Shown one piece after another: positions 2,732 to 61,200 of a stretch of DNA of 64,000 bases. The number at the start of each line of letters is the position of its first letter. Positions within the stretch are counted from its first letter, which is position 1. The notes below the pieces were generated by a model. The model saw only the letters and a program-made list of their open reading frames with translations, did not search any database and was not told where the DNA came from. The position numbers and the translations under genes were made by a program. This DNA is from Hymenobacter sp. GOD-10R (lineage in GTDB: Bacteria > Bacteroidota > Bacteroidia > Cytophagales > Hymenobacteraceae): contig NZ_CP141184.1 of the NCBI RefSeq assembly GCF_035609205.1, forward strand, positions 868,001-932,000. Reading direction: 5' to 3'.

Positions 2732-2751
2732 CCACCTAGCCATCAATCAGT

Positions 2752-4251
2752 ATGAAAATCAAACCATTTGCTCTTGGCTTGTTGGGCACGCTGGCCTTGA
2801 CGACCGGGTGCGAGAAATTCCTGGATCAACCCGTGCTCGGGCAATACGAGGCGGGGCAGTTCTTCACCTCCGATACCAACACCATCCTGGCCGTAAATGC
2901 GGCCTACGTGCCGCTCTCGTTTCGCGACGGCGGCTCCAACACCATCTGGGTGCTAGGCGATGTGGCTTCCGACGACGCCGTGAAAGGTAGCAACCCCGGC
3001 GACCAAGCCGACTTCGAGAACGTCGATAACTTCAGCATTGCGCCCATCAACGCCGCCGTAGAAGCCCAGTGGAAGCGTGACTACGATGGCGTATTCAAGT
3101 GCAACGCAGTTATCGATGGCTTGCCGGAATCGAACACCAGCGTTAGCGCCACGGTGCGCCAGCAGGCAGTAGGGCAGGCCAAGTTTCTGCGAGCTTACTA
3201 CTACCTGGAGCTGACCTCGCTCTACGGCGATATTCCGTTGCGTGTGAAGGTGGAAACGCCCGTGGAGCTGCAAAGCCCGGCTCTGCCGCAAGCCCAGATC
3301 TACGCCCAAATCGAGGCCGACTGCCAGGCTGCGGCCGATGCCCTGCCCACAAGCTGGTCTGGTTCCGACCTAGGCCGGGCTACCAAAGGAGCAGCCCTAG
3401 CTTTGCTAGCAAAAACCTACCTCTACGAGAAGAAATGGGCACTGGCCGCCCAAACGGCGCAAGCGGTGGGCGCCTTGGGTTATAAGCTGACCTCGGTGTT
3501 CGCCGATAATTTCCGCGCCGCGACCAAAAACAACACTGAAACTATCTTCTCGGTGCAGCACACCAGCGCCTTAAGTCCCAGCCAGGGCAACAACCTCAAC
3601 CAGTGGTTTGCTCCGCGTCCGCAGAACGGGTACGGCTTTTTTCTTCCTACCCAGAGTTTAGTGGACAACTTCGAGCGGACCTCCGCCGGCATCGTTGATC
3701 CGCGCCTGGACTACACCGTCGGGCGGACGGGCCAGCCGTTGTTCGGTGTGCCTTTTGACCCCACCTGGACCTCGACGGGCTACGTAGCCAAGAAGCACTT
3801 GCAGCCGCTTACCGAGATTCCGACCACCATCAAAGGTGACGGCAGCTTAAACTACCAAGCCATTCGGTACGCCGATGTGCTGCTGATGCAGGCCGAAGCT
3901 TTCAACGAAAGCGGTAACAGCATGGCGGCCTTGCAAGCTCTCAACCAGGTGCGCAAAAGAGCCCGCGAAAGCTACCTCTACGATACTTCGCTGCCGGGCG
4001 CCGGCACAGTACCCGCAGGCCTGCTGCCCGACATTACCGTGACGGACCAAAGCCAGTTGCGCGACCTGATTCGGCGGGAGCGGCGCTCGGAGCTAGCCCT
4101 AGAGTTTCACCGGTTCTTCGACCTGATTCGCTACGGTGAGGCTTATGCCCGCCAAGCGCTAAGCGACCGGCCCAATTTCAACTACGCTCGCAATCAGTTT
4201 TATCCCATTCCGCAGAGCGAGCGGGACACCAATAAAAAGCTAGGTAAATAG
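2752..4251 (+). CDS. SusD/RagB-family nutrient-binding lipoprotein
   Basis: A 499-residue protein with a lipoprotein signal peptide (MKIKPFALGLLGTLALTTGC, predicted lipidated Cys20), which fits the usual length of SusD proteins. The N-terminal half contains the TPR-like helical region expected of the family (for example QAKFLRAYYYLELTSLYGDIPL around residues 143-162), and the C-terminal part has the conserved LRDLIRRERRSELALEFHRFFDLIRYGEA stretch (split here: LRDLIRRERRSELALE then FHRFFDLIRYGEA), followed by a FYPIPQSE end typical of RagB/SusD. It sits on the outer surface of the outer membrane and pairs with the SusC transporter encoded 20 bp upstream to capture glycans. Regulation is not visible within the window. 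The identification is firm; the glycan is unknown. Confidence 0.95.
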   Translation: MKIKPFALGLLGTLALTTGCEKFLDQPVLGQYEAGQFFTSDTNTILAVNAAYVPLSFRDGGSNTIWVLGDVASDDAVKGSNPGDQADFENVDNFSIAPINAAVEAQWKRDYDGVFKCNAVIDGLPESNTSVSATVRQQAVGQAKFLRAYYYLELTSLYGDIPLRVKVETPVELQSPALPQAQIYAQIEADCQAAADALPTSWSGSDLGRATKGAALALLAKTYLYEKKWALAAQTAQAVGALGYKLTSVFADNFRAATKNNTETIFSVQHTSALSPSQGNNLNQWFAPRPQNGYGFFLPTQSLVDNFERTSAGIVDPRLDYTVGRTGQPLFGVPFDPTWTSTGYVAKKHLQPLTEIPTTIKGDGSLNYQAIRYADVLLMQAEAFNESGNSMAALQALNQVRKRARESYLYDTSLPGAGTVPAGLLPDITVTDQSQLRDLIRRERRSELALEFHRFFDLIRYGEAYARQALSDRPNFNYARNQFYPIPQSERDTNKKLGK

Positions 4252-43532: not shown

Positions 43533-43580
43533 AATGAGCGAGAAACGAGGCTCGAACTCGCGACCCTCAGCTTGGGAAGC
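43533..43580. repeat. attL: 48-bp tRNA-Gly 3'-fragment
   Basis: Identical over 48 bp to 56568-56615. It contains the T-arm, variable region, acceptor 3' strand and half of the anticodon arm of tRNA-Gly; beyond 43580 the sequence diverges, so no tRNA can form here. It is the displaced 3' end of the target gene. Confidence 0.95.
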
Positions 43581-43735: not shown

Positions 43736-45094
43736 ATGACAAGGACAACGGAGCACAAGGAGGGGAAGGCTACAGTGAAGGTTGTGTACTACAAGCAGAA
43801 GACGCTGGCAGATGGCTCGCATCCGTTCATGGTACGCATTACCAAGAATCGGAAGCTAAAGTACTTGGCGACCGGCTTGAGCCTACATCCGAAGTATTGG
43901 AATGCTGAAAAGAAGGAAATACGCCGGAGTTATCCCGAGAAGGCAAGAGAGAAGTTACTGCTAGACTTGAAAGAATGGCAGACCAAATACGAGGAGGCCG
44001 CTAAGAGCTTAGCAGAGGCCGACGAGCAGCACGACGCGCCGGCCGTTGCAGCCAAAGCTATTGAGGGCCGCAAAGCCCAGCGACGCGTTAAGCTGCTGGC
44101 TTACATTGAGGAGTTGGCAGTGGGTTTAGTAAAGACCGGGCAAATAGGTAACGCAACCGTGTACCGCGACCTGGGTAGTCAGCTAGCTAAGTTCATAGGA
44201 GCTGAATACAACGCGCCGGATCCGCCATTAGGGAAGGGGCAAGAGGCTGATAAGGCTACTTGGGTGCAGAAATACGACATTCCGTTTGATAGAGTAACTG
44301 TAAACTTCTGCAATGAATGGGAAGCCACGCTGCGTGCCACCAGGGTAGAAGAAATTACCCTCTCATTGCGTTTCCGCACGTTACGAGCAGTGCTGAACAA
44401 AGCAATTGCAGCAGGAGTAGCTAAAGCGGACAGCTACCCATTTGCTCGTACTGTAGCCGAGAAGCACAAGTTCAGCGTTGGCAAGTTCGACGTGAGCACA
44501 GCAAAGCGTGCCATTTCTCGCGAGGAGTTACGCAAGCTGGAAGCGCAGGAGCCAGAGAGCGACCGACAAAGGCTAGCCAAAGATGTATTTCTGTTTTCGT
44601 TTTACTGTGCGGGTATCAACTTTGTCGATTTGGCGCAACTCCGATGGAAAGACATAAACGGCACGGGTGAGACGCAACGACTGAGCTATGTGCGGCAAAA
44701 AACAGGGGGCAAGTTCTCGCTACGCTTACTAGCTCCTGCTGCCGTTGTCATAGATTCTTACCGCCCGCATACGTTCGCCGGACCTGATAGCTATGTGTTT
44801 CCCGTGCTGGATTCAAAAAAGCACACTACCCCAACGCAAATTAAAAACCGGCTGCATAAGGTGCTGGGACAAGTAAACAAAGACCTCAAGCAATTGGGAG
44901 AACAGGCTGGCATTGCTACACCCTTAACTACCTACGTAGCGCGGCATTCGTTTGCTACAACGCTGAAGATGGGCGGGTATGCTACAGGGATTATCTCACA
45001 GGCAATGGGTCATAAGTCAGAGGCCGTTACGGCTGTTTACCTTGACTCTTTTGCTTCTGATTTAGTAGATAATGCTTTTGAGGGATTACTATAA
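43736..45094 (+). CDS. int: Tyrosine recombinase (element integrase)
   Basis: A 452-residue protein of the Bacteroidota integrase type. It has an N-terminal arm-binding-like domain (VKVVYYKQKTLADGSHPFMV), a SAM-like core-binding domain (~110-240) and a catalytic domain (~265-450). Visible catalytic residues are Arg403-His404 in YVARHSFATTL, His in MGHKSEAVTAVY and nucleophile Tyr435. The canonical first Arg (in GLRxxE-type motifs) is replaced in AGINFVDLAQLRW, a change also known from IntDOT-like recombinases. It lies 155 bp inside attL and has its own promoter, with iterated sites between promoter and start. It should catalyse integration and excision at the tRNA-Gly site. Confidence 0.93.
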   Translation: MTRTTEHKEGKATVKVVYYKQKTLADGSHPFMVRITKNRKLKYLATGLSLHPKYWNAEKKEIRRSYPEKAREKLLLDLKEWQTKYEEAAKSLAEADEQHDAPAVAAKAIEGRKAQRRVKLLAYIEELAVGLVKTGQIGNATVYRDLGSQLAKFIGAEYNAPDPPLGKGQEADKATWVQKYDIPFDRVTVNFCNEWEATLRATRVEEITLSLRFRTLRAVLNKAIAAGVAKADSYPFARTVAEKHKFSVGKFDVSTAKRAISREELRKLEAQEPESDRQRLAKDVFLFSFYCAGINFVDLAQLRWKDINGTGETQRLSYVRQKTGGKFSLRLLAPAAVVIDSYRPHTFAGPDSYVFPVLDSKKHTTPTQIKNRLHKVLGQVNKDLKQLGEQAGIATPLTTYVARHSFATTLKMGGYATGIISQAMGHKSEAVTAVYLDSFASDLVDNAFEGLL

Positions 45095-46550: not shown

Positions 46551-47483
46551 GTGATAGATGAGACACGCTTTAGGGGTAAAATCGACCCCAACGACCATGT
46601 ATCGGTACACCGCCTGAGCCGTTCGCCTGCCTTTTATGAAGCTACTAGCGAGCCTGACGAGCGCGGGCGAATTAGATCGGCGTATCGTGGCTTTCGTTTG
46701 GACTACTTCTATGCAACGGGCGAGATTCAAGGCAAAGGCTCCTTGCAGAGCTTCGCTCAAGGAAGCAATGTCGCCAGGTTCACGGCGCAAGAGATTAAAG
46801 CTGCTTGCATTGACTTGGCTTCGGCCGTCGATCTGCCGCCAGAGCAACTACAAATCAGCCGCCTAGAAGCGGGTGTAAACTTGCCTTTGGCCGAATCACC
46901 TAAAGAGTTCTTAGCTGGCCTGATGAGCCATCAAAAGGCGCTTTTTACGGCTACGGATCCACCTAGCAAAGCAACTAGGCCACTGCTCTACAATGCATAC
47001 CATACAGAGCGGCGACTGAAGTTCTATGATAAGGGTGAGTACAACAGATTGCAGGGGCGCCCGCTGTCGCCAGATGGCCCGCCGCATCTACTGCGCTACG
47101 AAATAGCTTACCAACGGGCGAAGATACTGCAGCGCCTTACAGGCTTGCCAGAGCTGACGCTAGCAAACTTGTATGAGCCACAGGTATTAGAGGCCCTTGC
47201 TAATGATCTAGTCAAACAATGGGAGTGCACCCAACGACACCAACTAATGAACTACAACGGCCTTTCACTTGCTGAAGCGACCCTACTTCACGTGGCAACG
47301 GATACAGCTTTTTGGGAAGCTATGCGCAAGACCCTGCCGCGTAGCACCTACGAGCGTAACCGAAGCCGCGCCCAGGCTTTGCTACAACAGCGCCGCGAAC
47401 CACATCTCTACGATCAAGTATTTGCTCGCGAATTGAATGAACTGCTGCCGTCGCCTGAGCCAGTAGCCAATGTTCAAAAGTGA
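46551..47483 (+). CDS. Putative replication initiator (phage gene II/Rep-like)
   Basis: A 310-residue protein starting at GTG; there is no ATG in frame until far into the protein. The middle part has SRLEAGVNL, RLKFYDKGEYNRL and LLRYEIAYQRAKILQRLTG in that order. This resembles, from memory, the filamentous-phage gene II/CRI replication initiators and related plasmid Rep proteins, where YdKg and LRxE elements recur. The C-terminus is Arg-rich (TYERNRSRAQALLQQRREP). Rolling-circle replication after excision is therefore plausible. I could not identify a certain catalytic Tyr or HUH motif, so the call is tentative. The non-coding 354 bp that follow could hold an origin. Confidence 0.45.
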   Translation: MIDETRFRGKIDPNDHVSVHRLSRSPAFYEATSEPDERGRIRSAYRGFRLDYFYATGEIQGKGSLQSFAQGSNVARFTAQEIKAACIDLASAVDLPPEQLQISRLEAGVNLPLAESPKEFLAGLMSHQKALFTATDPPSKATRPLLYNAYHTERRLKFYDKGEYNRLQGRPLSPDGPPHLLRYEIAYQRAKILQRLTGLPELTLANLYEPQVLEALANDLVKQWECTQRHQLMNYNGLSLAEATLLHVATDTAFWEAMRKTLPRSTYERNRSRAQALLQQRREPHLYDQVFARELNELLPSPEPVANVQK

Positions 47484-47837: not shown

Positions 47838-48398
47838 ATGCACATTTCACCCAAAAATGCCCAATGCCTCTACTATGAAGGCCGCTATTACTTCTCTATA
47901 GCTAACGCTAGTCGCTACTATGTTTCCCCGTGTGGCTCAGTGCTATCAACGTGCGGAAAGAGGCCTAGACTAATGAGGCCGGCACCTATCAATAAGGGAT
48001 ACTTGATGACAAGGCTACATATGAATAACGGCAAGTGGCGGAACTGGTTAATTCACCGCTTAGTAGCCATTAGGTTTTTGCCAAATCCAGAGAATAAGCC
48101 TACCGTAAATCACATCGATGGTAATAAACTTCGAAATTCAGCAGACAACTTAGAATGGGCTACCTACAAAGAGCAAAGTGAACACACGATAGCCTCGGGA
48201 ATGTGGCCCGCCCAAAGCATGTATGGCTTATATGTGACACCAGCTGGTACGTTTACCACCATGAAGGCTGCCGCTGCTGTCCTGGGCGTTGCTGTCGTAA
48301 CTATAAGCAATCGTTGCAAAGGCTATAAGGGAAGGCCCGCCGCAGTGGGTTATGGCTTTATTCCATCTACTAGTCAACTGCAAAAACAGGCCGCGTAA
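47838..48398 (+). CDS. HNH endonuclease (homing-type)
   Basis: A 186-residue protein. The N-terminal part (YYEGRYYFSIANASRYYVSP, CGSVLSTCGKRPRLM) resembles the NUMOD-like DNA-recognition region of phage HNH enzymes. The nuclease core is IHRLVAIRFLPNPENKPTVN followed by HIDGNKLRNSADNLEWAT (His73, Asn91-His92, Asn100/Asn104). The C-terminus has a second NUMOD/HTH-like segment (MKAAAAVLGVAVVTISNRCK). Such free-standing enzymes nick or cut DNA and are common mobile cargo in phages. There is no sign that it interrupts a neighbouring gene. Confidence 0.85.
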   Translation: MHISPKNAQCLYYEGRYYFSIANASRYYVSPCGSVLSTCGKRPRLMRPAPINKGYLMTRLHMNNGKWRNWLIHRLVAIRFLPNPENKPTVNHIDGNKLRNSADNLEWATYKEQSEHTIASGMWPAQSMYGLYVTPAGTFTTMKAAAAVLGVAVVTISNRCKGYKGRPAAVGYGFIPSTSQLQKQAA

Positions 48399-49827: not shown

Positions 49828-50331
49828 ATGTCTGTATCTCAAATGAATCCCACTCAACCAAGTGCTGTAGAAGACGAGCTGTATTTTCCTGTCGGGCCTA
49901 CTCGCTACCAAGCTCAAAACGTCTTTCTTAGCGATGCTGAGCGGGCTGCGGGTTGCGAAGTATATCGAGTGCCAAATAGCGCGCTGGCTCCCTACCAGCA
50001 AGCAGGTGACTACGTTGTGGTACGTCCACTAGAGCGTAACTACTGGGGCGAGCCGAAGTTTGGTAACGTGTGCCTGCTCCTAGTGCAATACGAAGCGGAT
50101 GAATGGCTTCAGGAGTTTAAGGCCAATCATTTCATGCGCGTGCTTCACAACAGTATTGAGGACGGCGGCCCTATTGTCGGCTTTGAGGATGACGACGATA
50201 GCGAAGCCGTACCTACGCAACGCCGCGCGCGCACTATTCTGGAAATGTGGGTTGTTGTCCGGCTAACTCGCAACTATGGCGCCTGGGATGAAAAAGGCCC
50301 CTTTGAGCATCTATACAGGGAAGCATCCTAG
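49828..50331 (+). CDS. S24/LexA-fold-like regulator fragment, tentative
   Basis: A 167-residue protein. The pattern PNSALAPYQQAGDYVVVRPL, later NVCLLLVQYEAD, and a terminal ILEMWVVVRLTRNYG resembles the C-terminal S24 domain of phage repressors of Bacteroidota (GDSMxPxxxxGDyVv ... vrEvWkVv). However, there is no N-terminal helix-turn-helix, and the catalytic Ser/Lys pair is not evident. It could be a non-cleavable repressor partner or an anti-repressor. It lies 70 bp downstream of the previous gene and 20 bp before the next. Confidence 0.5.
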   Translation: MSVSQMNPTQPSAVEDELYFPVGPTRYQAQNVFLSDAERAAGCEVYRVPNSALAPYQQAGDYVVVRPLERNYWGEPKFGNVCLLLVQYEADEWLQEFKANHFMRVLHNSIEDGGPIVGFEDDDDSEAVPTQRRARTILEMWVVVRLTRNYGAWDEKGPFEHLYREAS

Positions 50332-50350
50332 CTACCTACTTATTCAATGA

Positions 50351-50725
50351 ATGACTTCCCTCCAAACTAACAACACGACAATGGCTGAAACACCCGAATC
50401 ATACCTGAAATTCATCGAGGACTACCCCAGCTACTTAGGCCTGCTGACTTACGTAGAAACCTTAGCTAAGAATAAGCCAGAGGTTTTTGAAAGCCCACCG
50501 GATGAAGCGATAATAGATGCGTTGGCCTCAATGCTCGCCACTAGGCTCTACTTGGCCGCATATGTCATGGGCGGTCTGCGGTTTATACATGAGGTCGAAT
50601 TAGAGTTTCTACGCCTAGGTAAGCAGCAGGAGGTAGATGCAATTATTCAGATGCTCAAGGCGAATGCGCTGTTTATGGTAAATGATAGCGGTAATACAAA
50701 TACAGATTCAGCCTCAGGTGAGTAG
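50351..50725 (+). CDS. Unknown small acidic helical protein
   Basis: A 124-residue protein (start at 50351, or 50381 which drops MTSLQTNNTT). It is acidic and mostly helical (YLKFIEDYPSYLGLLTYVET, LASMLATRLYLAAYVMGGLR, HEVELEFLRLGKQQEVDAII) with a polar tail. No family is recognised. It is the last gene of the 49284-50725 group; a bidirectional terminator follows. Confidence 0.6.
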   Translation: MTSLQTNNTTMAETPESYLKFIEDYPSYLGLLTYVETLAKNKPEVFESPPDEAIIDALASMLATRLYLAAYVMGGLRFIHEVELEFLRLGKQQEVDAIIQMLKANALFMVNDSGNTNTDSASGE

Positions 50726-50776
50726 GGGTGCATCAAGCACCGACTGACTACACCTGATTTTGCATTGAAGTACAAC

Positions 50777-50808
50777 AAAAAGCCCCGGCCGATTGGCCGG
50801 GGCTTTTT
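50777..50808. terminator. Bidirectional terminator between convergent genes
   Basis: A 14-bp perfect stem (AAAAAGCCCCGGCC and its complement) with loop GATT, between the plus-strand gene ending at 50725 and the minus-strand gene ending at 50828. Confidence 0.92.
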
Positions 50809-50827
50809 TATAGGGGTTGTGGTGGGA

Positions 50828-52771
50828 CTAGTAGGCGCCTCCGGTATTGTATCGTTTGGGTTTGGTATCTGCCGCTTTGGTAGAGGGCTGCGAGCTTCCG
50901 CCCCCGAAACCCAGTTCATCTGTCTTGCCGATAAGTTTGTAGTTCTTACCGCCATGGGAATAATATTTATCCCCTTGGGAAATGGTAGACGTGGTAGCCG
51001 GCTGACTAGTCTGCGTGTAAGGGCTGACAACGCGGCCACCTTTGCGCTGCAAGGCTTCAACCACTTGGTTCTGTTGAGGTGTAAGCCGTTTCGGGTTCCA
51101 CTTGCCGCCGCTAGCTCGTTGTAGCTGTGCGTCTACCGTCTGGCTAGCTGGCACAATAACCGACTGCCTGTTTTCTGTAGTGGAAGTTGCTGCCCAAGGC
51201 TCGGCATATTGACCTTTGGCGGCCTTGATGTTAGTGGTTGGCTTTGGCGGCCCGCCCGCGCCGTCATTGCCCGTTCTGGCCTTGTCGGTAAGCGTACCCC
51301 GGTATTCTACCCGTAGCTCAGCCTTGCGGGCCTGGGCAGTCGTTAGGCCGTCAATGGTCTTGTGTAGGTACTGATAGGCGTCTGCATCGGAGGCAAACGG
51401 CTCTTTACGGCCGACGCGCTTCCCATCTACATACAGCACATAGTCACGGCTCACAAGCTGCATGGGCACTTTACCGTTGCCTTCTGCTAGCGCCGTCGTT
51501 TTCCCATCTTGTCCAACGACTTCGGCGCCTCGGTTGTCTACCGTTACCTCAGCGTACGACTTACGAGCACTGGCAAAGGTTTCGCCCACAGTAGGGTAGT
51601 GGTTAGTGATAGCAGAAGGCAAAATCCCCACTGCATTTTTCACCCTCTGCATGGCACCGGTTGGCGCCGGCTGATAGGTAGAAGCCTGGTAGCCGGTTGT
51701 AGGTGTTACCGTTACCTCTGTTCCAGATTGCTTCGGGGTTGCCTTCGGTATTTTGGGTGCAATCGGCCGGCTGTAGGTTTGTGTATTGCTCGTGCGCTGG
51801 TAGGCGTGCGGTAGCAGCAACTCATTTAGGAACTCTGTACGCGTTTTAGGCGTGTTGGCTTCTTGCCATACGAATTGCCGTTCCTGCTCGGTTAAGGGCT
51901 CGTAGCTACGCATTTTCTGCTCGACGGCCTTTATTTGTGCATTGTATTGGCTCTGCTTCAAATCCAGCAAGCCTCTTAGGAACGGATCTGCTTCGGCGGC
52001 CAACTGCACTTCGGGCAACTCAGTGCGCGGAATAGGCTGGTGCGTTTTCGGGTCAAGCTTCAGCCGACCATTTTCGAGCAAGAAGTAGTTAGATGAGGCC
52101 TGAGCTTTCTGACCGTAACCGCCCGGCCGTGCTGCACTGGAAAGCGTTGATTGATCCGCTTCGAAGGTAGAATCTAGCCAGGCCTTCACTACCTGCGTCT
52201 CGTCGTAGTTCTTGGCGTTGGTCAGCGTGGCCGCAAGAGTAGTAGGGCTGAACTTACTTAGGTCAACCGTATTGCCTTGCTCGTCTTTGAGGCTATTATA
52301 GAGGTCGGTTGTGATGGCTGCGTCGTTGTAGCGCGGGTCAGCTTTGGCTGTCTGTCGCACCTGGTCGAGCATTTTGCCTACTTCCTCGGTACCATGTACG
52401 AAACTGTTATGTTGGTCCTCTAGCTGCTGCACCGCATTTCGCCTTTGATAGATATCTATCTTGGGGTCTTGGTAGAGGGCGTTCAGCTTTTCTCGTGCCG
52501 CTTGGACGCTCTGGTCAATCTGCGTTTTAAAAGGCAGGTAGCCGTTGACATTGAGTTTAGAAGCAGATAGTAGGTCGCGGAACTCCTGTGCCTGCTGAGC
52601 CTCTCGTTTGGCCTGTAATTGCTGCTCCTGTTGTTGCTGCCGCGCCCGTAGTGCGTCCTGCTGGCGGAGGATGGTCAAGGGTGCCGTGCCTAGGCCATAA
52701 ACGGTGGCATCCCCGCTGCCTGAAACCCCTAATGGGACAGAATTAAAGCCTGGAAATGGTAGTGTTGCCAT
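50828..52771 (-). CDS. Long virion-like (internal/structural) protein of unknown function
   Basis: A 647-residue protein without a signal peptide. The start is Gly/Pro-rich (PFPGFNSVPLGVSGSGDATV), followed by a long Gln/Arg/Ala coiled-coil-like stretch (~35-65, RARQQQQEQQLQAKREAQQA), a helical region (~75-160), a Pro/Thr/Tyr-rich low-complexity segment (~330-370) and a C-terminal tail ending in KYYSHGGKNYKLIGK, GFGGGSSQPSTK and KRYNTGGAY. This composition is what I expect of phage internal-virion, ejection or minor structural proteins, but I cannot name a family. It is the only such gene in the element and the only one in the middle part on the minus strand. Its function in a terminase- and capsid-free element is open. 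Confidence 0.6.
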   Translation of the reverse strand: MATLPFPGFNSVPLGVSGSGDATVYGLGTAPLTILRQQDALRARQQQQEQQLQAKREAQQAQEFRDLLSASKLNVNGYLPFKTQIDQSVQAAREKLNALYQDPKIDIYQRRNAVQQLEDQHNSFVHGTEEVGKMLDQVRQTAKADPRYNDAAITTDLYNSLKDEQGNTVDLSKFSPTTLAATLTNAKNYDETQVVKAWLDSTFEADQSTLSSAARPGGYGQKAQASSNYFLLENGRLKLDPKTHQPIPRTELPEVQLAAEADPFLRGLLDLKQSQYNAQIKAVEQKMRSYEPLTEQERQFVWQEANTPKTRTEFLNELLLPHAYQRTSNTQTYSRPIAPKIPKATPKQSGTEVTVTPTTGYQASTYQPAPTGAMQRVKNAVGILPSAITNHYPTVGETFASARKSYAEVTVDNRGAEVVGQDGKTTALAEGNGKVPMQLVSRDYVLYVDGKRVGRKEPFASDADAYQYLHKTIDGLTTAQARKAELRVEYRGTLTDKARTGNDGAGGPPKPTTNIKAAKGQYAEPWAATSTTENRQSVIVPASQTVDAQLQRASGGKWNPKRLTPQQNQVVEALQRKGGRVVSPYTQTSQPATTSTISQGDKYYSHGGKNYKLIGKTDELGFGGGSSQPSTKAADTKPKRYNTGGAY

Positions 52772-52928
52772 ACCATAAATTTACGCATTTATGACCGCAC
52801 AAACGCATTTTAGAGTTAGGTTAGAGCGCTGTTACGGTCACATGTATAATGCCCTTTGCATTTGATTATAAGCGTTTATCTACGCTAGAGTAAGTAGTTT
52901 GAAAGCAATTTGTTAACCCATAAAAACC

Positions 52929-54347
52929 ATGGAACAGTATTCCTCTACCCTTAATATCGATTTAGCGCAAATTGATAAGCTGAAGGCTAATATTGAAGCT
53001 TTACAGCCAATCAGCGAAGAGCAAAGGCAGCGTATTTTTCAGAAGTATCGATTGGATTGGAATTATCATTCTAACTCAATTGAAGGCAACAGTCTGAGCT
53101 ATGGGGAAACTGTAGCATTTCTAATGGAAGGTCTGACCGCCAAAGGCAAGCCACTAAAAGACCACTTAGATATCCGAGGCCATAACGAGGCTATTAATTT
53201 CTTACTAGAGTTACAGAAGCGTGAAGCAGAGTTGACTGAGCGAGACATTCGCGAGTTACACGTAATGATTCTGGTAGAGCCTTACGAGTCTCGAGCCGAA
53301 ACAGCAGATGGACAAGCTACTACAAAGATCATTCAACTAGGCCAGTACAAGACGTCAGCAAACCACGTGCGAACGGCAACGGGGGAGGTCCACTACTATG
53401 CTACGCCGGAGGAAACGCCCGCTAAAATGCACGATTTAATGGTGTGGTATCGGGAAAATAAAGCGGAAACACACCCGCTAATTCTATCGGCTCTATTTCA
53501 TCATCGGTTTGTTAGCATTCACCCGTTTGATGATGGAAACGGGCGTATGGCACGTTTGCTATCTAATTTGATTCTAATGCAAGCTGGTTATCCTCCTATT
53601 GTAATTCTTCAAAGCGAAAAACGCGAATATTATGGTGCACTTAGCCAAGCAGATGCAGGTATTGATACATCATTATTAGAGTATTTTTCAGAGAGACTTA
53701 TACGGTCATTGGATACTTACTTGAAGGGTGCAAAGGGGGAAGATATTTCTGATTCTAACGATTTAGATAAGGAGATAGCTTTGTTCAAAGCGTCTTTCGA
53801 CGACGAAGTTCTAGCAAGAGTAGAGTTGACAACACCTGTCTTGGAAGTACTATTGATTAAGTCTATTCTTCCACTATTAAAGAAGGTTATTGAGTACAGT
53901 AGTAAGCTCAATAACCTTTTTCTTTCGTCTGGCGTGAAGGTTTCAATTCATTCCATAGCTACCAATGAAGGAAATTATATATATGATGAAGAAACTGTTG
54001 ATCAATTTATAGATAGTTGGCTCGGAGGAACATCCCCTTTATTACTGGATAAATTTGTTGGGGTATTTTCTAAGAAATCTACTTATAGAACAATAACCTT
54101 AAATTACTCATGGAAAAGTTTTAAAGCCAGTACCAATCCATTGCCTAGCTTCTCTGAAATGATATCAATTACTTTTCATAATGCAGAATACGTTATTACG
54201 GCAGGTAGGACAACGTCTATTGGCTATATGCTGACTAAGTTTTATCCAAAACAACTGACTCAAGACGAAATAGATGCTGTAACTAGATATTTTGTCGTTG
54301 CAGTCATGGATACCATAAAGCGAAAGCAAAACCATACTTCTGTTTAG
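52929..54347 (+). CDS. Class II Fic-domain protein (putative AMP-transferase)
   Basis: A 472-residue protein. The inhibitory helix motif (S/T)xxxE(G/N) is present near the N-terminus as SNSIEGN (Ser48 to Asn54), which defines class II Fic proteins. The Fic core follows: LKDHLDIRGHNEAINFL, then SIHPFDDGNGRMARLLSNLI, with the full HPFxDGNGR catalytic motif (His198 to Arg206). Fic enzymes usually transfer AMP from ATP to Ser/Thr/Tyr of a target protein. The C-terminal ~200 residues (from ~275) match no winged-helix domain that I recognise and are AT-rich in sequence, so they probably determine target or sensing. Toxin or phage-defence function is inferred from its place in a mobile element. Confidence 0.9.
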   Translation: MEQYSSTLNIDLAQIDKLKANIEALQPISEEQRQRIFQKYRLDWNYHSNSIEGNSLSYGETVAFLMEGLTAKGKPLKDHLDIRGHNEAINFLLELQKREAELTERDIRELHVMILVEPYESRAETADGQATTKIIQLGQYKTSANHVRTATGEVHYYATPEETPAKMHDLMVWYRENKAETHPLILSALFHHRFVSIHPFDDGNGRMARLLSNLILMQAGYPPIVILQSEKREYYGALSQADAGIDTSLLEYFSERLIRSLDTYLKGAKGEDISDSNDLDKEIALFKASFDDEVLARVELTTPVLEVLLIKSILPLLKKVIEYSSKLNNLFLSSGVKVSIHSIATNEGNYIYDEETVDQFIDSWLGGTSPLLLDKFVGVFSKKSTYRTITLNYSWKSFKASTNPLPSFSEMISITFHNAEYVITAGRTTSIGYMLTKFYPKQLTQDEIDAVTRYFVVAVMDTIKRKQNHTSV

Positions 54348-54410
54348 GCCAGGTATTGATAAGTAGTTTTTCTGATTGTTGGATAATAAATATAGGGTAA
54401 AGGTATTTGT

Positions 54411-54456
54411 AACAAAAAGGCCCACACTATCGCAAGATAGCATGGGCCTTTTTGTT
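54411..54456. terminator. Terminator between the Fic gene and the unknown pair
   Basis: A long stem (arms 54411-54431 and 54436-54456) with only two adjacent mismatches and a GCAA tetraloop, with AACAAAAAGG/CCTTTTTGTT flanks. It serves both convergent genes. Confidence 0.88.
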
Positions 54457-54516
54457 AAACAGGAAGTAAAAAAATGTCTAATAAACCCAGCTTCATACTG
54501 GTGTCTGTCTATGAAA

Positions 54517-55956
54517 TTAGACTTGTTCGTCTAGTACAATTTGCTTAAGTCTATCAAAATCACTGTTTTGTTCATCGGTTCTAAAATCTGCAATCATACC
54601 TTTTAAGAGGTCATATCTACGTAACATTCTCTCTTTTAATTTATTTACTGCTTCTTCACTTGTGGAGCCATCGCCTTCTATTCCAGTTGTATCCTCCCTT
54701 ACTTTGTATTGCTGCCCACTAAAAGTTGCTTTCAGTTCTAAGGGATTACGCAATTTATATCCCTTCCCTCTCCATTCAATGGAATTGATTTCAATTGTAT
54801 ATTCATTTACTTGCTTTGCAGATACTATCTTAGATACAATCTGCTTTCGTGTCATTTTACTGATTTCTTGGTCTTTGTTTTTCTCAAATACTATTGTTAC
54901 TAGTTCTTTTTCTGGATTATCGAGGATAAGTATATCATTTTTATTCACTTTTTCAAATAGTACTTCACGTACTTTTTCATTGGAACGCACAGGCTTATCT
55001 ATAGACTTGAAGTGCTTATCTGCTTTGGTAATTTGATAGTCTTCATTTTCGATTATCTTGAGATAAGGATTTAGGAAGCGTATTAGCTGATCTGAAGTGT
55101 AACTGTTGCTTAGAGTATCAATAGATTCAGGATTAGTAAAGTCCATATCTATCACTTCTGTCTGGAAGCGACTTGGTAGATCTTTTAGCCAATTATATGA
55201 TTCCTGATCAAGAACGCTTAAACTAGAAATGAAATCGGGTGCAAGAGCAACACCAAAACTACCAAGTCCAAAATCCACACCCCGCAATACTGCCTGTTCT
55301 CTTATATTTCTAATGCTCTTGTTCCACTGCTTGGTGTCGTTGCTTCTACTAGCAAATCTCTTTTCATAATTAACGTGAGCATATTCCACGAAAGAGATGT
55401 TGATATTTTTTAAGTAATCAACCATTTGTGGTACTTCTGGTGAAGTACCATGTTTGTTGCCAGATGGCTTTAAGTTTGTGTATATGGCTTTATTTTGTAA
55501 TGCCTCGTAGTGACCTTGTGAGCTATCAGGTGAATTTACGATAGGTTGTTCAATCCAAGTATTATAATATTCTGGAAATGAGAGTTCGTAGTAAATATTC
55601 TCTTCTGGTATATAATCTTCGGGTAAGTCTTCTAGTGATAATAGCTGCAACAACGTATGCTGTCCTTCGTCATTAATGTCCGCTACTAGAACCCATTCGC
55701 TGATTGTAGTTTCTAATAAAGCTTTAAATTCTTCTAAGCCTCTTAAATAGTTAAGTAAGTTCTGCTGGGTTACGCGATAAATAAGCCAACGGTTAGCCGT
55801 GTCATCACTATCAACCCAATGGTATAGATAATGATGGCCTTTGTGATTGGTGTAATGGACTAATAGAGGACCATCAAAGTAAATGAGGTCTGCAACCCTA
55901 TTGAAGTCTTTAAGAGGAAAGTTATTTAAGCTTGCTCCATTCAGTTCTACCATCAT
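54517..55956 (-). CDS. Unknown 479-residue protein, second gene of the coupled cargo pair
   Basis: A soluble 479-residue protein with no signal peptide or membrane segment. The N-terminal ~110 residues (DLIYFDGPLLVHYTNHKGHH, YLYHWVDSDDTANRWLIYRV, LRGLEEFKALLETTISEWVL) recall the DUF6575 domain; this is from memory and not certain. The middle (~175-275) holds FVEYAHVNYEKRFASRSNDT and DFGLGSFGVALAPDFISSLS. The C-terminal part (~330-479) is a charged beta/alpha region (ILILDNPEKELVTIVFEKNK, VNEYTIEINSIEWRGKGYKL). No catalytic motif is recognised. Its ATG overlaps the TGA of the upstream 151-residue gene (4 bp), so the two are translated together. It is AT-rich relative to host genes and sits at the right end of the element, a usual cargo position. 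Confidence 0.75.
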   Translation of the reverse strand: MMVELNGASLNNFPLKDFNRVADLIYFDGPLLVHYTNHKGHHYLYHWVDSDDTANRWLIYRVTQQNLLNYLRGLEEFKALLETTISEWVLVADINDEGQHTLLQLLSLEDLPEDYIPEENIYYELSFPEYYNTWIEQPIVNSPDSSQGHYEALQNKAIYTNLKPSGNKHGTSPEVPQMVDYLKNINISFVEYAHVNYEKRFASRSNDTKQWNKSIRNIREQAVLRGVDFGLGSFGVALAPDFISSLSVLDQESYNWLKDLPSRFQTEVIDMDFTNPESIDTLSNSYTSDQLIRFLNPYLKIIENEDYQITKADKHFKSIDKPVRSNEKVREVLFEKVNKNDILILDNPEKELVTIVFEKNKDQEISKMTRKQIVSKIVSAKQVNEYTIEINSIEWRGKGYKLRNPLELKATFSGQQYKVREDTTGIEGDGSTSEEAVNKLKERMLRRYDLLKGMIADFRTDEQNSDFDRLKQIVLDEQV

Positions 55957-56408
55957 ACGGTCAAGGAGCTATCATAAGTAAAACTAGACTGCATAGGAGC
56001 ATCTACGTAAGGATGTACGTTGAAATGACCGTTTTGCTCGGGGGCTGATATTACTCCGTCAGCTGAGGTTAGGAGGCACTTTGCTACACATGTATACGGC
56101 GGGTTCATTTTCTTGAAGCCTTTTACTGCGTTAAACAGTGCATGAGCTTGGTAGGCTTTTAAAAAAAATGAGAGGCCTAACGCATTACAAGTTTTTGATG
56201 GCTCGCCTATATACGTTCTTATTGATCGCCCTTCTCGTTCTGCTTTGAGTATTTGTGGAAGAAAGTTGTCGGCTTCTGTCAAGGGTTCATACATAAAACG
56301 GAATGCCTCCAACCTTTCTACTTCTTGGCAATACTCACAAGGGCAATGCGCGGTTATTTCTAGCCTTTCCATTTCAAGCTGATACATCAGCTTATCCTTA
56401 TCACACAT
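55953..56408 (-). CDS. Unknown 151-residue Cys-rich protein, first gene of the coupled cargo pair
   Basis: A soluble 151-residue protein. The N-terminus carries HCPCEYC (Cys22, Cys24, Cys27), which could bind a metal together with His21 or later Cys residues (YTCVAKC around 105-111). The middle is helical (LPQILKAEREGRSIRTYIGE, LSFFLKAYQAHALFNAVKGF), and the tail (SADGVISAPEQNGHFNVHPY) is polar. I recognise no family. It is the first gene inside the right end of the element (160 bp from attR), and the 4-bp overlap with the following gene implies an obligate pair. A toxin-antitoxin, sensor-effector or anti-phage pair are all possible; none is shown. Confidence 0.72.
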   Translation of the reverse strand: MCDKDKLMYQLEMERLEITAHCPCEYCQEVERLEAFRFMYEPLTEADNFLPQILKAEREGRSIRTYIGEPSKTCNALGLSFFLKAYQAHALFNAVKGFKKMNPPYTCVAKCLLTSADGVISAPEQNGHFNVHPYVDAPMQSSFTYDSSLTV

Positions 56409-56500
56409 AGGATATTACTGTAATAGCAGAGGATATTATTGATGGTGCAAGCTACAGAATCTGCTTGCTAAATTTTGTGGGCAAGCCAAGCAAATCACTA

Positions 56501-56524
56501 GTTTAAACTATCGTTTAAACCAAA
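56501..56524. repeat. Two 12-bp GTTTAAAC iterons near the right end
   Basis: GTTTAAACTATC (56501-56512) and GTTTAAACCAAA (56513-56524) are direct repeats with the same 12-bp period as the block before the integrase. They lie 44 bp inside attR. Candidate arm-type recombination sites. Confidence 0.7.
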
Positions 56525-56529
56525 AACAA

Positions 56530-56563
56530 ATCAGCTACTTAGCCTTTAGGCTAAGTAGCTGAT
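56530..56563 (-). terminator. Element-borne terminator directly behind the tRNA-Gly gene
   Basis: A 15-bp perfect stem (ATCAGCTACTTAGCC and its complement) with loop TTTA, 9 bp from the 3' end of the tRNA and followed on the minus strand by TTGTTTTTGG. It lies inside the element, so it replaces the host terminator left behind at 43493-43530. Confidence 0.82.
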
Positions 56564-56567
56564 AATC

Positions 56568-56615
56568 AATGAGCGAGAAACGAGGCTCGAACTCGCGACC
56601 CTCAGCTTGGGAAGC
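56568..56615. repeat. attR: 48-bp repeat within the intact tRNA-Gly gene
   Basis: Identical to 43533-43580. It runs from four bases outside the tRNA 3' end through the T-arm to the anticodon loop, so integration reconstitutes a functional tRNA at this end. Confidence 0.95.
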
Positions 56616-56644
56616 TGATGCTCTACCAACTGAGCTACTCTCGC
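56572..56644 (-). tRNA. tRNA-Gly (anticodon CCC), integration target
   Basis: 73 nt on the minus strand. The cloverleaf closes: acceptor GCGAGAG with TTCTCGC (one G-U), D-arm GCTC/GAGC with AGTTGGTA loop, anticodon stem TCAGC/GCTGA with loop TTCCCAA (anticodon CCC), and T-arm GCGAG/CTCGT with loop TTCGAGC. The 3' CCA is not encoded. The 3' half is the 48-bp att core of the element. Confidence 0.95.
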
Positions 56645-56838
56645 GGAGCGGTACTTACTTGACAAAAATACACAGCAAAAAGCAATTTGCAACTGCCAGG
56701 CCGAGCCAAAAGGGTATAGGTGCTTTAGCAAGGATTAGGTGCAGCGATTAGGTGCAGCTAGCTTGTTGACCAAAAAGCAATACTTACTTCGCGTCGAGGT
56801 TAACGTACAACGCATAAAACCATTGAAAGAACGTGCAT

Positions 56839-57057
56839 ATGACTTCTTCTAATCGCAATCGGGGTACGCTTTATCTATTGATGGGACTGATTTTGTTAGG
56901 TATTCAGCTCTATCGGTTACCTGGGTTTTACGCTGATTGGCAAGTGGAGACACTCGACACACCGCGTTTCTTTTTGAGTATGGTCATTCTAGTAGGCGCG
57001 CTTTTCATGTTGCGGGCAGGCTGGCGAATGCGTCGAGGCGGTCATACTATCGATTAA
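56839..57057 (+). CDS. Small two-helix membrane protein
   Basis: A 72-residue protein (ATG at 56839; a GTG two codons earlier is also in frame). Two membrane segments (~10-25 and ~45-62: LYLLMGLILLGIQLYRL and FFLSMVILVGALFMLRAG) are followed by a basic end (WRMRRGGHT). No family is recognised. It is a host gene, next to the tRNA on its 5' side. Confidence 0.6.
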   Translation: MTSSNRNRGTLYLLMGLILLGIQLYRLPGFYADWQVETLDTPRFFLSMVILVGALFMLRAGWRMRRGGHTID

Positions 57058-57139
57058 ATAAAACCAGTAACTGAGCTAACTGCTTTCGTGCGAAAGTGTG
57101 GAGGTTTTACCTTTGAACCGCTTAGTAAACTTCCTAACA

Positions 57140-57676
57140 ATGTCTTCTCCGCTCCAAATCACCGTTGCGAAACGTACTACTGCTATAGCTGCTCAACTTG
57201 CTTCTTTCGGTCGCCAAGCATTTTACGACACCTTTGCCGCAGACAATACACCGGAAGATATGGCGGCTTATTTGGATGAAGCCTTTGGCGAGGCACAACA
57301 ATTTGCTGAGTTGCAGGACCCTAATACCGTTTTTTTGCTAGCGCAAATGCAACAGGAGTTAGTTGGTTCTGCCAAGTTGCGCTTTGGGTCTACACTTGGG
57401 CTAGCTCCGGGTAAGTCAGCCGATTCACAGCTAGAGGTGTCGCGCTTGTATGTGCAGAAAGATTGGATCGGGACGGGGTTAGGTGCTGTGCTCATGCGCC
57501 GAATTATCGAGGAAGCCCGTGCGAAGGGTTGCCGGAGTATTGTGTTGGGGGTATGGGAGCGCAACGAACGCGCTATTGCCTTCTACCAGCGATTTGGCTT
57601 TAAGACTATTGGCAACATGGATTTTATGCTCGGCAAAGACTTACAGAATGACCTCATTTTGCGCAAAGGCTTGTAG
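57140..57676 (+). CDS. GNAT-family N-acetyltransferase
   Basis: The frame opens at a GTG (57098), but the ATG at 57140 gives MSSPLQITVAKRTTAI and a 178-residue product of normal GNAT length. The fold is visible: FYDTFAADNTPEDMAAYLDE at the N-terminal helices, VFLLAQMQQELVGSAKLRFG (beta4), the acetyl-CoA loop WIGTGLGAVLMRRIIEEA with the Q/RxxGxG/A pattern, SIVLGVWERNERAIAFYQRF and FKTIGNMDFMLG. The close match to the spermine/spermidine and tabtoxin-resistance-like group suggests a small amine substrate, but this is not certain. It stands alone on the plus strand. Confidence 0.9.
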   Translation: MSSPLQITVAKRTTAIAAQLASFGRQAFYDTFAADNTPEDMAAYLDEAFGEAQQFAELQDPNTVFLLAQMQQELVGSAKLRFGSTLGLAPGKSADSQLEVSRLYVQKDWIGTGLGAVLMRRIIEEARAKGCRSIVLGVWERNERAIAFYQRFGFKTIGNMDFMLGKDLQNDLILRKGL

Positions 57677-57769
57677 CTAATATCCCTGGGCGCAGGCTAG
57701 CTTTCCTGCTTGCCCTACTAGTATGGCGCGGTACGCTTACTTTTGACCCGCCTTATCTACCAACCTGCT

Positions 57770-58861
57770 ATGCACTTGAGCTATTGCCTTCCTTCCATCC
57801 TGTTGTCGCGTGTAGCAGTTTGGCTGATGCCATGCTTGCTTGTTGCAGTGGGCTGTTCGTCGGGAGAACGGTCGGCGGGACCTCTGCCGACTGGTCATTA
57901 CGAAGGGCCTATCACGTACCAAGGCACGGAGCTACGCGCTATACTCGACTTACGTGAGGATGCTACCGGGCACTTAGAAGGAGATTTGCGCTTCCCGGAT
58001 AATCAAGGCCTAGGGTTTGTTGCTAGTAACTTGCGCTACAATGCCCCTTTACTTCGTTTTGAGCGCCAAGGCCAAATCAATTTGAGTGGTAGTACGGTGA
58101 TAGAGGCTATCCGAGAGGGTGATTTTTGGCGCGGCACATTTACTACCGACAGCGCCCAAGCAGAGCTGTTACTTGTCCGACGTGGCAAGGCTGATCCGCG
58201 GCCTTATGGTACGCAGCCGTTGACTATTCGCTACGGTAGCCAGAATATGAATAGCACCTTGCGGCTCCCCGACGATACGGTGCGCAAACATACAGCCTTG
58301 GTACTGTTGCCTGATTCAGCCACGGATTTAAGCCAAACAGCGGATCTATTGGCACGGCAAGGCTTTGCTACGCTACTTACGCAGCCTACACCCACAGCAC
58401 CTGATTCCGCAGCTGGTCAAATGGCTCAGGCCGCATTAGCAACGCTCCGTGCTACGCCTGGCGTAGATACCTTGCACGTGGGGTTGTGGGTAGCGGGAGC
58501 ACAGGCTCCGTTGGCGCTGAGCTTAGCTATGCAAGGAACTGTCAAGCCGGCCTTTGTGGTAATACAGGCGGTGCCCGTAAGCTCACTGGCTGCGCAACAG
58601 CCTTTTCGGGCACTTACGCGCCAACGGGTTCCGGTGCTGGCAGTATATGGAGGCAATGATACGGCACTCGACGCCCGGGAGAGCACAAAGCGGCTGCGCA
58701 GTGCGCTAGGAGGCCGGGGAGCAACGGTACGGCTGTATACCAATGCCAATCGTAACCTGATGCTGCCAAGTGGTACGCGCGCCGATGGCAAATGGGAGTG
58801 GACACGCCCCGCCCCGGGCTACCTAGATGAGCTACTCACGTGGCTACGAGCTAGGCAATAG
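57770..58861 (+). CDS. Lipoprotein with alpha/beta-hydrolase-like domain lacking a catalytic Ser
   Basis: The ATG at 57770 is preferred over the upstream start because it gives a lipoprotein signal (MPCLLVAVGC, Cys29); the product is 363 residues. Residues ~35-140 form a beta-rich domain (TGHYEGPITYQGTELRAILD, FTTDSAQAELLLVRRG) like those preceding hydrolase domains in Bacteroidota lipoproteins. Residues ~150-363 follow the alpha/beta-hydrolase order (LVLLPDSATDLSQTADLLAR, the nucleophile-elbow position, VPVLAVYGGNDTALDA with the usual acid Asp). The elbow reads LWVAGAQAPLAL, with Ala where GxSxG needs Ser, and the usual catalytic His near the end is not evident (NANRNLML). It is therefore probably inactive as a hydrolase, perhaps a binding protein. 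Confidence 0.7.
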   Translation: MHLSYCLPSILLSRVAVWLMPCLLVAVGCSSGERSAGPLPTGHYEGPITYQGTELRAILDLREDATGHLEGDLRFPDNQGLGFVASNLRYNAPLLRFERQGQINLSGSTVIEAIREGDFWRGTFTTDSAQAELLLVRRGKADPRPYGTQPLTIRYGSQNMNSTLRLPDDTVRKHTALVLLPDSATDLSQTADLLARQGFATLLTQPTPTAPDSAAGQMAQAALATLRATPGVDTLHVGLWVAGAQAPLALSLAMQGTVKPAFVVIQAVPVSSLAAQQPFRALTRQRVPVLAVYGGNDTALDARESTKRLRSALGGRGATVRLYTNANRNLMLPSGTRADGKWEWTRPAPGYLDELLTWLRARQ

Positions 58862-58880
58862 AAAGCTACGCTAGCTTTTT
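58862..58880. terminator. Short hairpin terminator between convergent genes
   Basis: A 7-bp stem (AAAGCTA / TAGCTTT) with loop CGC followed by T-tract, starting right after the stop of the lipoprotein gene and touching the stop of the minus-strand gene at 58879. Short but well placed. Confidence 0.45.
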
Positions 58881-61200
58881 AGAACAAGAGCAGCCCTTTT
58901 TCACGCAACAACAGCCAGGTAGGCGAAGCTAAGAACCCTTCAAACGATAGGCCAGCGGCCTTGGTGGGGAATGTGCTAGCCGCTTCTTTGAGTAGGACCT
59001 TAGTGTCGTAATCGAAGCTGAGCTTCACTAGGAGTTGGTGCAGCCACTCACCGATTACAGGGGAGGTTTTGACTTCAAAGTCCTCTGCTTGTTCGTAAAA
59101 AGTAAGCACCGCCCGCTGTCCTTTTTTATTATCAGTTAGCCGCAACTCAGGGGAATTGCCGAGCCAAAACAGCCGCGAATTTTGCTTAGCAGAATCAGCT
59201 TTGCTAGGTTCCTGCAGAGCTTGCTGAATAAGCTGCCGCGGCAGAGTAGCACGTGGTACTTTGAAATCGAACCAAAACTGCAGTGGTTCCTGCAAAGCGA
59301 CACCGTGCATGTAGTTATACAATGCTTTGGCGAGGCCAGGACCAAACTGCTCGTGGTTGGCACCAGTAGGATCATCGTGCCATAAGTCGTTCCAAGCGAA
59401 GTTGCCGGGCTCAGGACCAATAGCCGCTACGTTGTACTTGGCGGGATTTTTCCCAACGGGCGAATGAGCCGTCATGGAGAAGCGGTGCCAATAGCCCGAC
59501 TGCACAATGCCAGCTCCAAATAGCTGACGCACCACCTCCAGCGAATCAACGGTTTCCTGCGCGGTTTGGGTCGGGAAGCCATACATTAGGTAAGCATGTA
59601 CCATAATGCCAGCCTGGGTGAAGCCATCCGTCACGCGGGCTACTTGTGCAATGGTCACTCCTTTTTCCATCAGGGCAAGCAGGCGGTCGGAAGCCACTTC
59701 TAAGCCACCTGATACGGCAATACATCCGGCTGCTGCTAATAAGCGGCATAGGTCGGGTGAAAAAGTCTTCTCGAAACGAATATTTCCCCACCACGTGATA
59801 CTGACGCGCCGTTTGAGCAACTCAATAGCTAGGTCGCGCAGGGCGAGGGGAGGAGCTGCTTCGTCCACAAAGTGGAAACCAGTCTGCCCCGTTTGCCGCA
59901 CAATTTGCTCGATGCGGTCCACGAGTAATGTTGCGGGCGCTGTTTCGTAGCGGCTGATGTAATCCAGCGTCACGTCGCAGAACGAGCATCGTTTCCAATA
60001 ACAGCCGTGTGCAATAGTGAGCTTGTTCCACCGACCATCACTCCATAGCCGATGCATAGGGTTCAGCACTTCGATGACCGACAAGTACTCAGTGAGCAGC
60101 AAGTCGGAGTAGTCGGGGGTACCGACTTCCGGGTGCGGGATATCGGGATGCGGGAAGTTGACATACTCAACCTCGCCAGCCTCGTTGCGCAGGAAGGTGC
60201 GCTGTAGCTTAGCACGCTCTAAAAGATCCTCCTGCTGAGCGTGTTGGAGTAGCTCACTCGAATCGTCGAACGATTGGAAATACTGCCGGACACGAGAGGC
60301 TTGGTTTACACCTGCCGCCGATTCGACTAGCTCTGCACGACGGCTTTTTTCGTTGACTAGATATTCTAACAACCGCAGCCACGGGCCTTCGCCGTCGTCT
60401 AGGGTTAGATAGTCGATGTAGTCAAAAAAGCGGGGCTCTTTTATCTGGCGCAGCTCGGTATTAGGGTACCCGCCGCCCATTAGGGTTTTGGTGTGCGGAA
60501 GAAGTGCTTTCGCGCGGCCAGCCAAACGCAAGGCCCCGTAAAGGTTGCCCGGAAACGGCACGGTAAAGCCTACAACATCTGGCTGTACGCGCTCCAGCAG
60601 TTCATCCATCAACTCCAGAAGGATGCGGTCTACGAGATTGGGCTCTGTTTGCAAAGCCTCGTACAACGGCTCGAAGCTGGTAGCTGATAAAGCTAGCTTT
60701 TCCGCATAACGTGAAAAGCCAAACTGCGGGCCCACTGTTTCCTTGATCAAGTCGCCTAGGTCCTCGAGATAAAGCGTCGCCAAATGCCTTGCCTGATCGG
60801 TCAGCCCCATGGTGCCGAACGCGCCTTCCAAATCTGCGATGTTGTCGAAGCGGGCTGCTTCGGGCAAAAAGCGACTATGGCAAATACGCGGAGCTAGGGT
60901 GTTGTCTTTGTTCTGCAGAAATCGGATTACTGGCTCAATGGTCGTAATGTAGCTGCGTTGCAGGCGCACCATGCGGCGAGCATTATCGCTGAGCTCGTAC
61001 CGGCCTAGCTCGATTTCCGCGAATACGCGCTTCAGCCCGGCCGCTGAAAACATACGCAGTACCAACTCCAAGCCTAGGTCGGCTTGCGTAACAGCGTAGC
61101 CGCGTCCGCCCAAAAAACCCTTCAGGTAAGCCGTAGCTGGGTACGGCGTATTAAGCTGAGTTAGCGGCGGCGTAATGAGCAGGATGCGGAAGATAGACAC
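58879..61200 (-). CDS. B12-binding-domain-type radical SAM protein
   Basis: A 773-residue protein. The N-terminal part (FRILLITPPLTQLNTPYPAT, AYLKGFLGGRGYAVTQADLG, later DVVGFTVPFPGNLYGALRLA and TLMGGGYPN) is a cobalamin-binding-like Rossmann region without the DxHxxG motif of B12-binding enzymes. The radical SAM core has the iron-sulfur cluster motif HGCYWKRCSFCD: Cys400, Cys405 and Cys408, a CX4CX2C spacing instead of CX3CX2C. This is followed by FHFVDEAAPPLALRDLAIEL, WWGNIRFEKTF, GGLEVASDRLL, VHAYLMYGFPTQTAQETVDS. It presumably uses SAM to make a radical on an unknown substrate. It stands alone and is divergent from the unknown gene at 61296. Confidence 0.85.
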   Translation of the reverse strand: MSIFRILLITPPLTQLNTPYPATAYLKGFLGGRGYAVTQADLGLELVLRMFSAAGLKRVFAEIELGRYELSDNARRMVRLQRSYITTIEPVIRFLQNKDNTLAPRICHSRFLPEAARFDNIADLEGAFGTMGLTDQARHLATLYLEDLGDLIKETVGPQFGFSRYAEKLALSATSFEPLYEALQTEPNLVDRILLELMDELLERVQPDVVGFTVPFPGNLYGALRLAGRAKALLPHTKTLMGGGYPNTELRQIKEPRFFDYIDYLTLDDGEGPWLRLLEYLVNEKSRRAELVESAAGVNQASRVRQYFQSFDDSSELLQHAQQEDLLERAKLQRTFLRNEAGEVEYVNFPHPDIPHPEVGTPDYSDLLLTEYLSVIEVLNPMHRLWSDGRWNKLTIAHGCYWKRCSFCDVTLDYISRYETAPATLLVDRIEQIVRQTGQTGFHFVDEAAPPLALRDLAIELLKRRVSITWWGNIRFEKTFSPDLCRLLAAAGCIAVSGGLEVASDRLLALMEKGVTIAQVARVTDGFTQAGIMVHAYLMYGFPTQTAQETVDSLEVVRQLFGAGIVQSGYWHRFSMTAHSPVGKNPAKYNVAAIGPEPGNFAWNDLWHDDPTGANHEQFGPGLAKALYNYMHGVALQEPLQFWFDFKVPRATLPRQLIQQALQEPSKADSAKQNSRLFWLGNSPELRLTDNKKGQRAVLTFYEQAEDFEVKTSPVIGEWLHQLLVKLSFDYDTKVLLKEAASTFPTKAAGLSFEGFLASPTWLLLREKGLLLF

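Follow-up and report, generated by a model that had tools for sequence, protein, structure and literature searches.

What kind of system is encoded by the coupled gene pair at the right end of a mobile element in Hymenobacter sp. GOD-10R, and how may its two proteins work together? The window, i.e., the whole stretch of 64,000 nucleotides analyzed here (NZ_CP141184.1, positions 868,001 to 932,000), carries on its minus strand the ORF of a small protein of 151 amino acids (A; 55953-56408) and that of a large protein of 479 amino acids (B; 54517-55956), which share 4 bp in an ATGA stop/start overlap (55953-55956, minus strand). A is a PD-T4-10_A homologue with a predicted ADP-ribosyltransferase (ART)-like fold. 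B consists of a head of the PD-T4-10_B type (residues 1-128; 55573-55956, minus strand), which corresponds to DUF6575 (Pfam PF20215), and a different body (residues 145-478; 54523-55524, minus strand).

The pair sits at the attR end of a 13-kb element that is flanked by an exact direct repeat of 48 bp (attL, 43533-43580; attR, 56568-56615). attR lies within tRNA-Gly(ccc) (56571-56644, minus strand), the integration site, and the core of attL and attR is the 3' half of this tRNA gene. A tyrosine integrase (43736-45094, plus strand; Pfam Phage_integrase, 5.3e-12, and Arm-DNA-bind_5, 1.4e-15; integrase also in PHROGs) comes after attL. Between the tRNA and A lies a terminator-like hairpin (56530-56563, minus strand), detected by a hairpin scan that gave 7 sites in the stretch compared to 2.1 expected from shuffles; the terminator and attR that the first-pass annotation had placed beside the pair were thus recovered. 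So was the AT-richness relative to the host: GC3 is 0.31 in B and 0.40 in A, compared to 0.60 in one host gene (58879-61200). The convergent neighbour of the pair is a Fic gene (52929-54347, plus strand), whose product matches the PADLOC candidate PDC-S04 (8.7e-34) and SoFic (2.3e-29). An imperfect inverted repeat near 54412-54457, between the Fic gene and the pair, was seen by eye and is absent from the scan list. Elsewhere in the element, one gene (46551-47483, plus strand) has a weak replication-initiator-like match (Phage_CRI, 0.023) and another (47838-48398, plus strand) matches HNH endonucleases (6.3e-7).

The identity of the pair emerged from PADLOC, which names both genes PD-T4-10. A matches PD-T4-10_A (PDLC04023) at 8.2e-18 with residues 6-144 of 151 (profile 11-142 of 148), and B matches PD-T4-10_B (PDLC04024) at 1.3e-30. 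The earlier view of a defence or toxin-antitoxin type pair on a mobile element is borne out, but the pair is no undescribed module, as had been proposed, since PD-T4-10 is a published system (PMC9519451). According to the accessible part of that paper, PD-T4-10 was found by selection in Escherichia coli, consists of two overlapping ORFs and is a toxin-antitoxin system giving abortive infection against T4; B is toxic and neutralized by A, A could not be deleted, deletion of B abolished T4 resistance, and neither protein had a predicted function when published (PMC9519451). Within the literature searched, the names PD-T4-10 and DUF6575 were each found only there.

The window pair has the same two-gene order and overlap as PD-T4-10, its A is homologous over nearly the whole length, and its B starts with the same DUF6575 head (32 bits in Pfam versus a cut-off of 26.6, in line with the tentative assignment made before). 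However, B matches the PADLOC model with residues 2-124 only (profile 1-121 of 353), so that its rear two thirds lie outside a model that L047, a Holophagae locus with an E. coli-type body, matches along 1-343 of 353. B is therefore a variant with the same head and no full PD-T4-10 member, and the window pair is almost certainly a diverged module of the PD-T4-10 family. Protection and toxicity are reported for the E. coli system only.

How firmly do the two genes belong together? Searching 390 genomes of the order with B gave 28 places in 25 genomes, five of them matching the body only, and genome contigs screened with a DUF6575 alignment yielded 22 loci, 18 of which have A directly upstream. 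In the pooled set of 51 DUF6575 ORFs, from which duplicates were removed by hand and in which near-identical copies from related species (L041-L043, L016/L017) were kept, so that the ORFs are not independent events, A is directly upstream in 36, with gaps of −61 to +7 nt. The coupled layout noted before is thus more than chance, since 35 loci besides the window keep both genes in this order and within this range of gaps. The 15 ORFs without A directly upstream are L016-L019 and L021, which form one group, L025 at a contig edge, L034, L037, L040, L051, L054, and four phage loci. Four members of the group (L016, L017, L019 and L021) encode DUF6575 proteins of 421-427 aa that adjoin, as judged by eye, aroC (two), thiD and rplM; these proteins have perhaps been put to another use. 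The first-pass annotation had held that homologues of B found mainly without A, in housekeeping contexts, would speak against a paired module; the pairing stood in the majority of loci, and the 15 ORFs without A directly upstream, four of them beside putative housekeeping genes, speak in part against it.

Seen from the side of A, the pairing is stricter. With an A alignment, 20 places were detected in the 390 genomes of the order, 19 of them near full length and the twentieth a frame of 58 aa, and a DUF6575 ORF follows A in all 19 near-full-length cases. The system is rare in the phylum samples, where A occurs in 5 of 395 genomes (one match, probably by chance, in a frame with stops) and the count for DUF6575 is likewise 5 of 395 (here, too, one match is in a frame with stops).

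The part behind DUF6575 is variable. PDC-M63B-like bodies are present in L039 (8.5e-10), L005 (1.4e-10), L002 and L016, and L057 has a Csa3-like region (1.7e-8). In L121 (4-1534, minus strand), DUF6575 is fused N-terminally to the HsdR protein of a type I restriction system (HSDR_N, 2.7e-38; SWI2_SNF2); the head was recognized (4.4e-10) by a profile not trained on L121, A lies upstream (1474-1935), and an HsdS-like ORF was seen by eye nearby. Within the window's own genus, the body of G662 is of the window type and that of G532 differs. Several relatives thus share their M63B-like body with the PADLOC candidate PDC-M63, for which the accessible part of one study reports no defence by PDC-M63AB (PMC12409345). 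The window proteins had no M63 match in PADLOC at E up to 10, and the comparison of the window body with the M63B profile was not significant (probability, 1.7%).

A stays with DUF6575, and the part behind it varies and is in one case a restriction nuclease; read most simply, A and DUF6575 would be the control unit and the attached part the output. On balance, DUF6575 would be the control head. DUF6575 with A upstream may then mark new effectors fused behind it, as in the HsdR fusion. An alternative is that DUF6575 itself is toxic, with A as an antitoxin that simply binds and has a vestigial ART-like shape, and with bodies that only tune or localize the head. This alternative is kept alive by minimal pairs, present in many loci, in which A is followed in the same order and with the same overlap by a DUF6575 ORF without any body (123-210 aa), and it agrees with the reported toxicity of the E. 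coli B and its neutralization by A (PMC9519451). Nevertheless, we consider it improbable: the HsdR fused in L121 is by itself an effector, and DUF6575 without A in phages and beside the housekeeping genes identified by eye is unexpected for a toxic domain.

If DUF6575 is the control head, the body of the window's B should be the output. It is common to L008, L009, L010 and L004 at 17-25% identity and also occurs alone, as proteins of 319-336 aa, in L022, L023, L024, L028, L029 and L079. A HicA-like ORF of 94-97 aa follows the stand-alone body in four of these six (L022, L023, L024 and L079, not L028 and L029); that of L022 reaches 26.8 bits in Pfam HicA, compared to a cut-off of 27, those of L024 and L079 have no Pfam HicA match, and neighbours without a Pfam score were called HicA-like by alignment. 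A profile of the body only found 29 places in 26 of 395 genomes of the phylum sample, namely, four long proteins (L077, L078, L079 and L080) and 25 small ORFs that matched via its last ~90 positions. Eleven of the 25 small ORFs adjoin a HicA-like frame (eight of a common type, three of an unusual type), four of these 11 having themselves been part of the profiles. Six small ORFs were compared with Pfam; three matched HicB_lk_antitox at 0.001-0.002 and three (L081, L082 and L103) had no HicB score. All four neighbours compared matched HicA, three of them with values between 5.5e-17 and 1.4e-20 and the fourth with 2.4e-5. From the matches of the tail to small ORFs beside HicA-like frames and from these Pfam scores, the C-terminal part of B is very probably a HicB-like domain (approximately residues 384-461; 54574-54807, minus strand). 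The model of the tail has three strands and a long helix and belongs to the low-confidence part of the B model, in which the head is confident and the body has pLDDT values mostly under 50; the poor body model is due to the few body relatives in the structure input, which held the window sequences and the DUF6575 loci of genome contigs only.

The window pair therefore resembles HicAB systems in the HicB-like tail of B and in a body that adjoins HicA-like ORFs in four of its six stand-alone cases. Unlike HicAB, the pair comes without a HicA gene: there is no such ORF in 50000-60000, and the Pfam HicA model gave no match over the window's genome (G000), with 7 of 14 controls positive. Furthermore, B starts with DUF6575 and has seven times the length of the small HicB-like ORFs. 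In L073 (9405-10677, plus strand), the stand-alone body and a HicA-like neighbour lie inside a type I restriction locus, between the HsdM and HsdR genes.

What does A contribute? The translation contains seven cysteines (residues 2, 22, 24, 27, 74, 107 and 111), and the run HCPCEYC had been taken as a possible sensor. This idea is weakened by the 32 distinct A proteins, in which the first Cys of the run is present in 30, and the next Cys position is Pro in 25 and Cys in 2. Conserved instead are S80, G118 and H128 (32 of 32) and R37 (31 of 32). The predicted model of A (pLDDT, 85.8) gave ART-type folds in 46 of the best 50 matches listed, and R37 is located on strand 1, S80 on strand 2 and H128 on the last main strand; hence, the model makes an ART-like fold of A probable. 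A would thereby resemble ART-fold proteins such as Tpt1/KptA, RES/MbcT, ParT, DarT and others in its predicted fold, with R37 on the first and S80 on the second strand. Unlike these, it gave no match in a sequence-level comparison with ART-fold proteins, has no conserved catalytic Glu among the columns conserved in at least 75% of the 32 A proteins, and stands by homology in the place of the antitoxin and not of the toxin. The sequence controls were without signal, which lowers the odds of the ART-like fold and of the overall reading. Some ART-fold families work without a conserved Glu. That A acts as an enzyme is doubtful.

The ART-like fold also raises the question of polarity. ART-fold members of toxin-antitoxin pairs are usually the toxin, and HicB is an antitoxin; A, as an ART-fold enzyme, could therefore be the toxin, and B, with DUF6575 and the HicB-like tail, the antitoxin or regulator. 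This reversal is kept alive by the distribution of the genes, which is that of toxin and antitoxin: A without DUF6575 was found in 0 of 19 near-full-length matches, and DUF6575 is often found without A. We regard it as unlikely, since A has no conserved Glu and since in the E. coli system it is B that is toxic and A that neutralizes and is not deletable (PMC9519451).

With the polarity of the E. coli system, we see about an even chance that the window pair is a diverged abortive-infection (toxin-antitoxin) module of the PD-T4-10 family with an exchanged effector body, in which A and the head form the control switch. Sequences provide the homology of A and of the head, the conservation of the pairing, the exchange of bodies and the HicB-like tail; that B is toxic and A neutralizing is carried over from the published system; and we infer DUF6575 as the control point, infection as the trigger and the target of the body. 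In our model, A would form a conserved control switch with the head of B, and the effectors would be exchangeable. A would bind the head, or modify it via its ART-like pocket, and the attached body would be held inactive; phage infection would disturb this hold, the body would be freed, and growth would stop. The window body, a middle domain with the HicB-like tail, might be directed at RNA or translation or bind a HicA-like protein. This guess derives from the presence of the same kind of body in HicAB-type loci, since RNA and translation are where HicA and HicB act; that the window body acts on RNA or translation is a tentative and rather improbable proposal.

A more general form of this model is imaginable, in which A and DUF6575 are an exchangeable immunity switch: A, with its ART fold, would gate the head by modifying it, and the head would be joined to effectors of unrelated kinds (HicB-type bodies, HsdR nucleases, HTH proteins), the window copy would be the HicB-type build, and solo DUF6575 proteins of phages would be interfering decoys. 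We consider this form speculative and rather improbable. Viral contigs contain eight DUF6575 loci with four distinct ORFs of 123-157 aa, all without A (L058, 6977-7348; L059, 7004-7426; L061, 3025-3402; L065, 7001-7474). The protein of L058, from a putative phage contig of 673 kb, shares 62% identity over 122 aa with a Paraprevotella head; that of L059, on a contig that also encodes a portal protein, shares 51% identity with the same head over 117 aa. In a viral structure library, the B model had three matches at E below 0.001, one of them named DUF6575. A putative role of the solo DUF6575 proteins as decoys or in counter-defence would fit these observations. The comparison makes the mechanism of PD-T4-10 testable with regard to the toxic half of B, A as an enzyme or pseudo-enzyme, and phage DUF6575 as counter-defence. 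In L065, a KptA-like ORF (2476-3030, minus strand; by eye) lies about 4 kb from the phage DUF6575 gene.

Finally, the position of the pair at the edge of an integrated element and its toxin-antitoxin layout would also suit an addiction module that stabilizes the element in its host and has no anti-phage role. This reading is very unlikely in view of the T4 protection by the E. coli system (PMC9519451) and of some relatives within or adjacent to restriction or abortive-infection genes: besides the HsdR fusion, the neighbours include a type IIG-like methylase and a zeta-toxin-like gene, a DNA methylase, Eco57I and other methylases, NB-ARC, Schlafen and AbiGi, an evidence that consists of ten proteins picked by eye and is not a sampled statistic. 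In the congener G662, an AbiGi-family gene (L068, 7961-8800, plus strand; PF10899, 6e-29) is located 30 bp upstream of A. In another congener, G166, a 47-50-bp copy of this tRNA-Gly end is located 24 kb from the intact tRNA, together with an integrase related to that of the window element (75.6% identical over 135 aa), and therefore, another element seems to use tRNA-Gly in this genome. ORFs of 1018 aa (methylase-like) and 901 aa (helicase-like), both judged by eye, adjoin the tRNA there (L162, L163).
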